Made by a program: the position numbers and the translations under genes. Shown one piece after another: positions 22,269 through 42,312 of a DNA stretch of 43,899 nucleotides (position 1 is its first letter; every line of letters begins with the position of its first letter). Source of the DNA: Alloprevotella sp. oral taxon 473 str. F0040 (GTDB lineage: Bacteria > Bacteroidota > Bacteroidia > Bacteroidales > Bacteroidaceae); the NCBI RefSeq assembly GCF_000318095.2, contig NZ_KB290718.1, positions 1,344 through 45,242 on the forward strand, written 5' to 3'. The notes under the pieces were generated by a model, which was not told the DNA's origin, did no database searches, and saw nothing but the letters and a program-made list of their open reading frames with translations.

Positions 22269-22640
22269 ATGTACACGCTTTTTGTTATTTTGGCCGTCAT
22301 CACCGCCATTCTCCTCGCCATTGTGGTGCTCATTCAGGAATCTAAAGGTGGTGGACTCGCCTCTAACGTTTCTGGTGCAAACTCCGTGCTCGGTGTACGC
22401 AAAACTACCGACTTCGTGGAGAAGGCAACTTGGACGCTCGCTGCTCTCCTCGTGGTATTTAGTGTAGCTACAAGTTTCTTCGTACACCAAGAATCTGGTG
22501 ATGCTTTCGATGTAGCTAACATCAAAACCACAGCTCCAGCTATGCCTGCCCCCGCAGCTCCTGCTAAGAATCAAGCAGCTCCTGCAAATCAAGCTACTAC
22601 TCCTGCAGCTGAAACACCCGCACCATCTACTTCTAAATAA
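22269..22640 (+). CDS. secG: Preprotein translocase subunit SecG
   Basis: 123 residues. Two hydrophobic helices (about 2-20 and 55-75) flank the conserved cytosolic loop VLIQESKGGGLASNVSGANS. SecG assists SecYEG-mediated export. The last 40 residues are a low-complexity Ala-, Pro- and Thr-rich tail (APAAPAKNQAAPANQATTP), longer than in typical SecG. It starts 7 nt after the preceding gene and is followed by a strong terminator, so it ends the activator-lptE-secG unit. Confidence 0.93.
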   Translation: MYTLFVILAVITAILLAIVVLIQESKGGGLASNVSGANSVLGVRKTTDFVEKATWTLAALLVVFSVATSFFVHQESGDAFDVANIKTTAPAMPAPAAPAKNQAAPANQATTPAAETPAPSTSK

Positions 22641-22690
22641 GAATGATACATCAGCAATACGGCTGAACTTCGCATCATCTCTTACTCACT

Positions 22691-22735
22691 ACGCCTCATC
22701 GTTCAACTCAATTCTGAACAATGAGGCGTTTTTGT
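22691..22735 (+). terminator. Rho-independent terminator after secG
   Basis: A stem of 14 pairs with one C:A mismatch (ACGCCTCAT-c-GTTCA against TGAAC-a-ATGAGGCGT), a 9-nt loop, then TTTTTG. It lies 50 nt after the secG stop codon. Confidence 0.9.
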
Positions 22736-22950
22736 GTTGATTAGCTGATGACGTAGTGAACACCTAGTAAGACCCTACGGAGCTAACGAATCATAGGCTG
22801 CACATGATTCTTAAGACAAATCAGCGAACCTTATTTCGACTGCCCTCCCAACTCTGATCCGTCAGGTATAGAACCTTCGACCCCAACCTTCGATCTTGAG
22901 CATGGCTGTGATGAAAAATGGAATCGTTAATATCTCTATAAATCGGTTTC

Positions 22951-23012
22951 CTCGCGTGCGCGCGCACGCGCACACCCTGCAATTTTGTTTTTTTGCTTTC
23001 ACAACCTTCACA
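22951..23012 (+). repeat. Long inverted-repeat element copy 1, left arm
   Basis: CTCGCG, then an uninterrupted purine/pyrimidine alternation of 23 nt (22953-22975), then ACCCTGCA and a spacer, then a 23-bp core at 22990-23012 ending GCTTTCACAACCTTCACA. The core is a perfect inverted copy of 23303-23325, and ACCCTGCA is an inverted copy of 23334-23341. Confidence 0.9.
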
Positions 23013-23302
23013 GATTCTCCTATATTCAACTGAAAATCAAATAGATACAGCTAAAATTGAAACACATTTTAAGGCTCCACCTTTCTAAAGAGCAAATGCA
23101 AGGAAAATCATAGGTTGAGACTAACCTGATAATTTTTCACTTCGATAGCAACTTACGAGCCAAAAACATAAAAATAGGAGCAATCTCCTAAACTCTCGGA
23201 CACTTTTATCAAAAAGTCGGAGAGCTGTTAGTAAATCTCCTAGATTTCAATAGCCTAACTCCTTGATATTAAATAAAGAAACAGGGATATTTCTATCTAT
23301 TG

Positions 23303-23364
23303 TGTGAAGGTTGTGAAAGCAAAAAGTGAAGAATGCAGGGTGCGCGCGCGTACGTACGCGCGAG
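23303..23364 (-). repeat. Long inverted-repeat element copy 1, right arm
   Basis: The mirror of the left arm at the same length (62 bp): core 23303-23325 (TGTGAAGGTTGTGAAAGC followed by five A), then TGCAGGGT, then 23 nt of uninterrupted alternating purine and pyrimidine (23340-23362), ending CGCGAG. The alternating tract differs in sequence from the left arm (TACGTACG here) but not in pattern. The arms are 290 bp apart. Confidence 0.9.
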
Positions 23365-23672
23365 ACGCCCAAAATTTAGACAAAGGGAAACAGACAACGA
23401 CCTATACCGTCTCTCCTCGTTGCTCTTGAACTAAAACTATCACGAATACATCCGCAGCTTCGCCAATTAATGTCTCAGTAAATACACCTCTTTACTCAGT
23501 TGTTTGACTTGTCTACATAGCAAAACAGAGGGGTCTCTAAGAAAAAACTGCACTTTCTTTCAATATTTTCTCTCTTTGTGCCAATATCAACCCATATATC
23601 TATAGAGGGCAAAGGCAATGAACACGTGAGATATGGCACCATACAGCGCAGCTATCAATATTAGACAAGGCA

Positions 23673-23711
23673 TAAAAAGACTGCGCAACCACTAGAAAGC
23701 AGTTGCGCAGT
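23673..23711 (-). terminator. Rho-independent terminator of the nucleotidyltransferase gene
   Basis: A perfect 10-bp stem (ACTGCGCAAC/GTTGCGCAGT) with a 12-nt loop. On the minus strand it is followed by CTTTTTATG. It lies just after the stop codon of the gene at 23769-24680. Confidence 0.8.
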
Positions 23712-23768
23712 TGCTAAAAATTAGAGAGAAATAGAGAAGGATGAAAATTGCATCCCTAATTCTCAATT

Positions 23769-24680
23769 TTAGAACATCTTTTCTGGATAGATACCATCGG
23801 CTCCGAGTTTAGCAAATTTCTCTACTACTTCGGGACGATCTTCGGGATAGGTCACGCCAAACCATTTAGAAGTGGTATCAAGCACTTCGCAGGTAGCTTC
23901 ACCCTTACGAATCAGATGATCGACCATGAGAGGAATGAAGAACTCGCTCTTCAAGTTTTCGATGTTTTTAGGATCAGAGAGGAACTGTTTGAAATACTCT
24001 TCTGAGTGAGCGAAGTAGTCAGGAGTGAAACCCCAGAAGTTCATAGAAACAGGAGTCGTGTCGGGGATAGACACCCATTCACCCTTTTCATCCAAGTATT
24101 GCACCACACCATCGTGACGCTCAATCTTGGTGCGTTCAACGACAGAGGTGAGGAGGTTCTTTTCATCTACCTCGCAAACTCCACGGCTCACGGTGCCACT
24201 CTCAGAAAGAGTGTTGCCTACGCGGAAACCGACCATGGCATACTTACCAGTGCTTCCTTCAGGAAGTGAAGAGAGGAACTTACCCATCACTTGGAAAGCA
24301 TCGCGATCGTAGAAGTCATCGCAGTTGAGCACTGCGAAAGGCTCTTTAATCACACCAGCACCCATCATCACAGCGTGGTTGGTACCCCAAGGCTTTTCAC
24401 GACCTTCTGGGCAAGTGAAACCTTCGGGCAGAGTGTCAAGGGCCTGGAACACCAGCTCACAAGGGATTTTATCTTGATACTTCGTAAGAACGATTTTACG
24501 GAAATCTTCTTCAAAGTCTTTGCGGATCACGAAAACGAGTTTTCCAAATCCAGCGTTGATAGCATCATAGATAGAATAGTCCATGATGGTTTGCTCTTGG
24601 GGTCCGAGTTTGTCAAGTTGCTTGAGACCACCATAGCGACTGCCCATACCGGCAGCAAGGAGAAATAGTGTGGGTTTCAT
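23769..24680 (-). CDS. Sugar-nucleotidyltransferase-like protein
   Basis: 303 residues. The N-terminus LFLLAAGMGSRYGGLKQLDK is the nucleotide-binding signature of NTP transferases (GxGxR and a following Lys). AVLNCDDFYDRDAF supplies the metal-binding Asp pair near residues 120-125. WGTNHAVMMGAGV resembles the substrate loop. Such enzymes couple an NTP to a sugar phosphate, but the sugar cannot be read from the sequence and no pathway partner is adjacent. It is likely soluble and cytosolic. A -7 box is at 24709-24716 and a terminator follows. Confidence 0.85.
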   Translation of the reverse strand: MKPTLFLLAAGMGSRYGGLKQLDKLGPQEQTIMDYSIYDAINAGFGKLVFVIRKDFEEDFRKIVLTKYQDKIPCELVFQALDTLPEGFTCPEGREKPWGTNHAVMMGAGVIKEPFAVLNCDDFYDRDAFQVMGKFLSSLPEGSTGKYAMVGFRVGNTLSESGTVSRGVCEVDEKNLLTSVVERTKIERHDGVVQYLDEKGEWVSIPDTTPVSMNFWGFTPDYFAHSEEYFKQFLSDPKNIENLKSEFFIPLMVDHLIRKGEATCEVLDTTSKWFGVTYPEDRPEVVEKFAKLGADGIYPEKMF

Positions 24681-41488: not shown

Positions 41489-41504
41489 TCCCTCTGCTTT
41501 TTTC
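41475..41504 (+). terminator. Rho-independent terminator overlapping the permease stop codon
   Basis: AGCAGGGGGA pairs with TCCCTCTGCT (ten pairs including one G:T); the loop ATAA contains the end of the stop codon (41486-41488). TTTTTC follows. The stem therefore begins inside the coding region. Confidence 0.85.
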
Positions 41505-41701
41505 TTCCTCCCCTATCTGTATAGGGGTGGAATTGCCCCCAAAGTGTAGGAAAATGGTGGAAAAGTGATGAAAAAATTTATTCACCTCACGTTTTTGTAA
41601 TTCACACCTATCAAATACATGGTTTTATACAACAACACTATGTATCGTCATTTGACCGCCCTCTAAGGTTTAGTTTGCCTCTCGCAATAGTGCTCAGTTT
41701 T

Positions 41702-41760
41702 CTCGCGTACGCGCGCGCATCCCTAGCAATTCCGACTTTTTGCTTTCACAACCTTCACAG
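41702..41760 (+). repeat. Long inverted-repeat element copy 2, left arm
   Basis: CTCGCG, then an uninterrupted purine/pyrimidine alternation of 17 nt (41704-41720), then CCCTAGCA and a spacer, then a 25-bp core at 41736-41760 containing GCTTTCACAACCTTCACA. It has the same order as both arms of copy 1. Confidence 0.9.
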
Positions 41761-41912
41761 GGTAGCTCTAATTCTCATCGTTTTGGCACTTTCCACTTAC
41801 TCCTATATCATAGGGCATTTTTCAGCTTCTCGGCCTTCTTTTTCGGCTAAGTGTTAATTATTGTCCGAAACACACGTATTATTCACTGGTAGACAATAGG
41901 TTACAACGTTTT

Positions 41913-41978
41913 CTGTGAAGGTTGTGAAAGCAAAAAGTTGCAAAATCGCAGGAATGCGCGTATACGCGTACGCGCGAG
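41913..41978 (-). repeat. Long inverted-repeat element copy 2, right arm
   Basis: Core 41913-41937 is the exact inverse of 41736-41760 (25 bp). It is followed by a spacer with CGCAGGA, then 23 nt of uninterrupted alternating purine and pyrimidine (41954-41976, including GTATACGC), ending CGCGAG. The arms are 152 bp apart. Confidence 0.9.
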
Positions 41979-42062
41979 AGTCGCCAATTCTACAGAATTT
42001 AACAGACAAAAAATTACCTCTCTCCCAAACGCCAAACATTATCTCCGACTTATGCAAAAAGT

Positions 42063-42092
42063 TCTCCGAGATTTTCATTAAACTCTCGGAGA
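42063..42092. repeat. Small inverted repeat TCTCCGAG/CTCGGAGA
   Basis: A perfect 8-bp inverted repeat with a 14-bp loop, flanked by further CTCCGA and TCCGAGA words between 42040 and 42145. Related words occur between the arms of copy 1 (23176-23240). Confidence 0.6.
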
Positions 42093-42312
42093 TTTATGAG
42101 TGCAACTTCCGAGATTTCACCCAAAAATCTCCAAGAGCTGTTGCAAGATGCACACGGCTTTCTTACATCCACATAGGAGAAACGACACTGTGGATTGCAC
42201 ATCGGATAGAACTATCCCCATCGAGCGGAACAGATGGCCCTACCACACAACTAGAGAAAACATCAAAAAGTGGAAATATAAGACGTAACCCATTGATTTT
42301 CTCTTACAAAAC

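Follow-up and report, generated by a model that had tools for sequence, protein, structure and literature searches.

Facing sites with CG-rich alternating ends form a dispersed intergenic element in Alloprevotella

Two copies in the window and the build of the arms

The window, a stretch of 43,899 nucleotides from Alloprevotella sp. oral taxon 473 str. F0040 (genome G000, 2.55 Mb in 24 contigs), carries two copies of a non-coding element made of two arms that face each other (Table 1). Copy 1 lies between secG (PF03840) and a gene for a 303-aa protein without a Pfam match, and copy 2 (41704-41978) lies between the genes for an AI-2E transporter and ribosomal protein L19. The initial annotation described copy 1 as two arms of equal length around a segment free of genes, and both points hold: the arms are 62 nt each, 81% complementary, and 290 nt apart, and no ORF of at least 80 aa (ATG, GTG, or TTG start) is found between 22640 and 23769. 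The core GCTTTCACAACCTTCACA, searched with up to 3 mismatches, has four matches in the window, all exact and all in the arms of Table 1, against an average of 0.03 in shuffled sequence; the observation of paired arms is correct and far above chance. The annotation also gave each arm exactly 23 nt of unbroken purine/pyrimidine alternation, which is accurate for both arms of copy 1 but is not general as an equal pair: run lengths across arms peak at 12-14, 17, and 21-23 nt, and copy 2 combines 17 with 23.

Table 1. Positions of the two copies and of associated features in the window
Feature	Position	Strand	Remarks
Weak match to R-arm outside motif (GTTAAnAAnTnTAAAA)	22926-22943	+	placed by eye
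Copy 1 left arm	22951-23012	+	tract 22953-22975, spacer, T-run, core 22995-23012; R-type, typed weakly (small margin)
Copy 1 left alternating purine/pyrimidine tract, 23 nt	22953-22975	+	
Copy 1 left core	22995-23012	+	with neighbours, two 9-bp repeats (CTTTCACAA CCTTCACAG)
TCGGAGA-type repeats within long-class copy 1	23182-23249	.	present elsewhere in the genome too
TAACTCCTTGAT motif typical of long-class interiors, L side	23256-23267	+	
Copy 1 right arm	23303-23364	-	core 23303-23320, spacer, tract 23340-23362
Copy 1 right alternating tract, 23 nt	23340-23362	-	
Candidate associated box (CTCTTTGTG...CCCATATATCTATAGAGGGCAAAG)	23570-23614	.	read by eye; second-half consensus co-localises with P2826 elements
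Copy 2 left arm	41704-41759	+	tract 41704-41720, core 41742-41759
Copy 2 right arm, typed R	41914-41978	-	core 41914-41931, tract 41954-41976
TCGGAGA-type array outside copy 2 R arm	42040-42136	.	by eye

The same build recurs throughout G000 and in the sister species Prevotellaceae bacterium Marseille-P2826 (LT608321.1, here P2826). Read from the outside in, an arm consists of CTC(A/G)CG with a CG-rich alternating tract, a short AT-rich spacer of one of three types (TTACAG, ACCCTGCA, or TTCCCTGG), a T-run, and the core with its two 9-bp repeats. R arms carry a motif on their outside (GTTAAnAAnTGT) and islands of motifs over about 80 bp inward, and L arms of the short class have almost no motifs on their inner side. 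The main class of core-to-core spans measures 199-202 bp and accounts for 33 of 75 spans shorter than 380 bp, with further classes near 189, 212, and 222 bp and a longer class of 283-371 bp to which copy 1 belongs with 326 bp (86 spans were typed, excluding L015 and L022, which contain N, and L046). The length of about 200 bp is found again at loci that have unrelated sequence on the L side of the interior. Quantisation of lengths by helical turns, seen by eye, proved weak under test, with p 0.12 on 15 length classes and 0.048 on a range narrowed afterwards, and was set aside.

Two other features accompany the arms. Arrays of partly palindromic TCGGAGA units resembling TCGGAGATTT, in steps of about 22 bp, occur in the window within copy 1 and outside the R arm of copy 2, and in P2826. 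TCGGAGA-type matches number 319 in 1.97 Mb of P2826, where they occur in every zone of the chromosome, and 88 of them lie within 700 bp of an element as against about 10 expected from an even spread; roughly 9-fold enriched near elements yet widespread, the arrays are not exclusive to the element and were rejected as a part of it. A box reading CCCCTATATAGGGG ... GCAAAGAGTGAAAAATCGCA is seen on the L-arm side, in the window both beside copy 1 and at about 41500-41590, and again in P2826, where its second half has 24 matches, 19 of them no more than 700 bp from an element and 0 in the zone more than 0.8 Mb from the origin.

Distribution among genomes and along the chromosome

With up to 3 mismatches the core has 48 forward and 48 reverse matches in G000, where the reversed core used as a control has 4 and 6, and the matches form a facing pair at 44 loci. 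Two arms that seem to stand alone have a partner with a 1-bp core deletion in one case and a degenerate partner in the other, for about 46 copies in all, a count that omits four single matches with 2-3 mismatches taken as chance (L049 and L056-L058). All 44 paired loci are intergenic, as judged with a simple ORF caller and with ORFs below 600 nt that overlap an element set aside, and the directions of the flanking genes look random (both reverse at 13 loci, both forward at 11, convergent at 11, and divergent at 9). Runs of 20 N interrupt arms at L013, L015, L022, L025, L026, L028, L031, and L038, mostly with arm sequence on both sides; these are assembly joins at the repeats.

Of 60 relatives, the congeneric G033 alone carries the core many times (44 and 42 matches), and three others have a single match each with 1 mismatch. 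The core 23-mer was found in a wider genome collection in LT608321.1 only, in 42 stretches, and that chromosome holds 43 facing pairs, 37 of them from these stretches; G033 matches it at 100% at three loci over the parts compared. Plasmid and phage collections gave no match to copy 1, and IMG/VR gave five contigs with one exact 17-mer apiece, which we take as chance. The locus next to element L037 was compared in 30 of 41 genomes of the genus (30 loci, of which 28 belong to genomes besides G000 and G033 and some end at contig ends), and outside these two it has just four 13-nt alternating runs.

In a third species the layout is unchanged but the core is another. CG alternating 16-mers in the 41 genomes of the genus number 30 in G000, 28 in G033, 11 in G005, 7 in G023, 5 in both G008 and G010, 4 in both G036 and G062, and 0-2 elsewhere, some of them inside genes. 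G005, with a PEP-synthase-like protein that shares 74% identity with its G000 counterpart as compared with 97% for G033, has arms with the identical order of parts around the core CTTCCACTGCTTCCAC; a degenerate pattern of this core has 47 matches in G005 and 0 in the control, and exact matches form 12 facing pairs. When nine G005 copies were placed against the sequence of G000 and P2826, two were plausibly in the same place, four lay beside genes with a core-less stretch in G000/P2826, and three lay on the other side of the matched gene, one of them across from the window's copy at the same gene. Single arms in which a CG tract adjoins different tandem repeats (TGGCAGTAGTGTAGG; TGACAGTATGACA; TACTGCCCTACTGCC) were seen at L198 in G023 and at L184 and L195 in G008, and perhaps represent further versions of the core, though as no more than a lead.

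Elements are evenly spaced along the chromosome. The nearest neighbours among the 43 of P2826 are 11.5 kb apart, where kernel (smooth-density) nulls predict 9-11 intervals below 10 kb, and the observed minimum was reached in 0 of 5000 draws under each null. The shortest interval within a contig of G000 is 9.7 kb, and contig C14, with 19 elements, has a coefficient of variation of 0.47 against 0.92; in G005, counting single matches, the shortest interval is 6.5 kb.

They also thin out away from the origin. Third-position skew of 1065 ORFs of at least 200 aa, in 1.97 Mb of sequence, places the P2826 origin at about 1.68 Mb and its terminus at about 0.32 Mb, and all six full-length 16S genes are co-directional with the forks. 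Three zones at distances of 0-0.4, 0.4-0.8, and more than 0.8 Mb, which measure 0.8, 0.8, and 1.16 Mb, contain 24, 13, and 6 elements (KS p 3e-5). Element-free gaps of at least 200 bp are no rarer far out, at 161, 218, and 210 per Mb, as counted with a simple ORF caller over 0.46, 0.57, and 0.94 Mb of sequence partly sampled around elements. Since the right replichore is almost empty past 2.06 Mb, with 1 of 43 elements on the way from 2.06 Mb past the terminus to 0.43 Mb, the gradient is lopsided and not a symmetric domain. Orientation of the R and L arms had no association with replichore (p 0.16 and 0.47, at provisional origins of 1.40 and 1.55 Mb and with 7 of 43 untypable elements dropped). 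In G033, contig C6 shows between about 2.30 and 2.53 Mb a strand skew of opposite sign to that of the sequence around it, which would fit an inverted or misjoined segment.

Conservation of core, length, and alternation

Thirty-one of the 46 G000 copies could be matched by their flanking genes to an orthologue in P2826, and another ten were unassigned or unused. The core is the most conserved part, with 25 of 1116 sites differing in 62 orthologous arms and 8 of 930 at positions 3-17, although picking orthologues by cores with up to 3 mismatches biases the set towards conserved cores and these figures towards conservation, and gene conversion among the copies could raise it further. Five G000 copies (L010, L031, L041, L044, and L047) face an orthologous intergenic region in P2826 that, by eye, is armless; L047 is the window's own copy, and P2826 has a different element some 6 kb from the equivalent place.

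Among copies of the short class, with about 200 bp from core to core, length is conserved; in the long class, to which copy 1 belongs, it is not. Where the G000 span is at most 260 bp, 19 of 20 orthologous interiors agree within 2 bp net in spite of up to 9 gaps in their alignments, as compared with 14.9 expected if indel signs were random (p 0.003), and the lone exception differs by 21 bp. Of the 11 pairs with longer spans, one is unchanged in length (349 bp), L017 goes from 426 to 199 bp, and the other nine show differences of 20-214 bp, with N joins in some of the G000 spans.

The initial annotation staked its proposal of selection for DNA shape on the tract being present and alternating in most genomic copies of the core, and it is. 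Within 60 nt outside the core the longest alternating run is at least 10 in 170 of 170 arms and at least 15 in 104, with a mean of 17.7 (176 arms of both genomes minus 6 with N, orthologues counted twice), and composition shuffles, made on the 24-nt stretch of highest GC content and so on less sequence than the 60-nt scan, give 4.9. Compared at equal length over positions -48 to -25, 0.77 of steps alternate as against 0.50 in shuffles. In 58 aligned orthologous arms substitutions affect 26% of sites in the outer flank, 17% in the tract, and 13% in the spacer. Transitions run at the same rate in flank and tract (0.105 and 0.108), and transversions fall about 2.7-fold, from 0.158 to 0.058. Because transversions in the tract drop while transitions stay at the flank rate, it is the alternation itself that is kept. 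Tracts have 155 transitions to 84 transversions, a ratio of 1.85, and sequence beyond the arms has 127 to 192, a ratio of 0.66 (Fisher p 5e-9). A two-base shift in aligned alternating tracts favours transitions, and an ungapped count over the 38 of 58 arms in the same register (at least 70% identity), which removes this effect in part, gives 2.74 against 0.74. This contrast is the strongest support for the idea that alternation and not the letters is kept. The other half of that proposal, that shape is selected rather than a sequence read by a protein, is at odds with the conservation of the core.

The palindrome score is 5.89 as against 4.94 in shuffles that preserve the purine/pyrimidine pattern, a modest excess over 170 non-independent arms, and where alternation is broken once the break sits at the palindrome centre in 22 of 65 arms, with 9.7 expected. 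Both favour palindromes, while transitions that break pairing yet proceed at the flank rate speak against them, and Z-DNA and a cruciform cannot be separated on this evidence.

Competing explanations and a possible role

Facing inverted repeats are the known layout of invertible promoters in Bacteroidales, and arms facing each other around some 130-690 bp would suit such a promoter or another site-specific inversion unit. That reading is hardly credible here: the better-matching orientation of the interior agrees with the flanks in 30 of 31 orthologous pairs, no pair is clearly inverted (0 of 31, with small interior margins in L013 and L017), and in the remaining pair, L017, flank scores are too low to tell while the orientation agrees with the flanking gene order at the protein level; the random look of the flanking gene directions also tells against it. 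A transcribed RNA structure or terminator, suggested by the GC-rich self-complementary tracts and the T-runs nearby, is very improbable. Rfam has no match in the window at 22600-23800, convergent genes are not preferred (11 of 44), and mispairs at the best palindromes show no strand bias, since G-T and A-C are equally frequent (171 and 165, in loosely delimited tracts). It is likewise improbable that the alternation is merely a remnant of an old CG microsatellite altered by slippage and transitions. Two-base slippage and transitions do preserve alternation, and tract lengths do vary, but substitution simulated at the flank rate lowers the mean run at -48 to -25 from 15.0 to 8.7 over a single G000-P2826 distance, whereas long runs persist in both species, and transversions are lowered without an increase in transitions.

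A selfish, non-autonomous repeat of the MITE or REPIN kind is a possibility to be taken seriously, if short of an even chance. If the element were moved in trans by a putative transposase, its cores would be the transposase's sites and would co-evolve with it, and the spacing would reflect a rule like target immunity, which is known from Mu and Tn7. The facing arms, their confinement to intergenic DNA, the different core of G005, the largely different locations in G005 on the one hand and in G000 and P2826 on the other, and the five copies with an armless counterpart in P2826, the window's included, all fit this reading, as do the near-duplicates. Certain copies resemble each other at 77-87% in the same genome, and when five such pairs were aligned similarity started or stopped in the tract on at least one side in four, one of them a mosaic of identical and unlike patches, and extended past both tracts in the fifth; therefore units are sometimes copied, by a route that may be transposition or conversion. 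Inverted terminal repeats without coding capacity, as in MITEs, and extragenic inverted palindromic doublets, as in REPINs (here with a modest palindrome excess), are both found; random extragenic placement is not, the copies being regularly spaced. No target-site duplication is legible at the five empty sites, which are too diverged to show ends. On the other hand, every P2826 pair (43 of 43) spans less than 700 bp, as do all recognised pairs of both genomes, and no larger autonomous relative with the same ends was found among them, although degenerate ends would escape. The 8 longest of 41 open frames of at least 70 aa, from 29 interiors of at least 300 bp, contain no Pfam transposase, and the only matches are two below the cut-off in one repetitive frame. 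The RAYT family Y1_Tnp (PF01797) is absent from the results for G000, G033, and G005 and present in 5 of 14 controls, although a missing stretch could hide a RAYT because the genomes are 85-97% complete; the silence of Mu-type PF09299 in the three genomes is uninformative, since 14 of 14 controls are silent too. The gradient from the origin also counts against a selfish repeat, and mobility alone leaves it unexplained that copies staying in place keep core and alternation.

Because in-place copies keep core and alternation, we prefer selection on the host, and give an even chance to a dispersed non-coding paired-site element that is maintained by the host, bridged by a protein, and probably used in chromosome organisation. 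A putative sequence-specific protein would probably bind the two-repeat core of each arm and bridge the facing cores over the short intervening DNA, which varies little in length within the most frequent class; facing sites at a held distance suggest such a bridge. The CG alternating tracts lie at the outer edges and are kept alternating, probably for a change of shape (Z-DNA or cruciform) under negative supercoiling; ends that retain a capacity to depart from B-form point to such a link with supercoiling. A role at the scale of the chromosome is suggested by the even spacing and by the thinning from origin to terminus, and new copies come from occasional copying of a unit that often ends at the tracts. 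Against maintenance by the host stand the mostly different places in G005 and the near-duplicates, both of which suit a mobile repeat, as well as the lopsided gradient, the weak helical periodicity, and the single length kept among the 11 longer orthologous pairs. A more elaborate version, which we consider rather unlikely as a whole, would be a lineage-specific organising system in which a fast-evolving DNA-binding protein and about 45 co-evolving paired sites, separated by about 10 kb or more and more crowded near the origin, carry CG ends as supercoil-sensing shape switches, the core having changed in concert while the layout stayed constant.

Known systems resemble the element in part. In the available text on matS/MatP of E. 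coli, 23 matS sites lie in 800 kb, likewise a repeated site over one part of the chromosome, but matS is a 13-bp site of the terminus domain, whereas the paired element is several hundred bp long, denser near the origin, and variable in its core between species, with a putative protein only (PMC3330122); the element itself follows a lopsided gradient with no sharp domain. REPINs are described, in the portion of the source available, as extragenic inverted doublets with a palindromic part and common spacings of 71 and 110 bp, in sequence classes that co-evolve with the lineage's RAYT transposase and are reported random in extragenic space (PMC3116915). The present elements share the inverted extragenic doublets, the palindromic part, common fixed spacings, and sequence classes by lineage, but lack a Y1_Tnp match, are regularly spaced, and have larger arms with a separate two-repeat core (PMC3116915). 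Among the literature matches listed, only the BrickBuilt MITE of Porphyromonas gingivalis approached such an element: in the available part of its description it is also from Bacteroidales, always intergenic, and without an internal transposase, with ends resembling those of the IS5-type ISPg1 and a 23-nt tandem repeat comparable to the TCGGAGA repeats of the long class (PMC4596501). That part describes no alternating tracts or facing two-repeat cores, and the TCGGAGA repeats here are also found away from elements (PMC4596501). A survey of prokaryotes reports, in the portion available, that Z-DNA-prone patterns are generally suppressed; alternating purine/pyrimidine tracts are common to both cases, but here they mark one repeat family (PMC4060949).

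An evenly spaced, origin-graded set of sites whose core varies between species would make the organisation of these chromosomes testable, and with it how a protein and dozens of its sites shift specificity together. Selection visible on the shape of DNA, as alternation, instead of on its letters would be unusual, and about 170 arms can be compared here.
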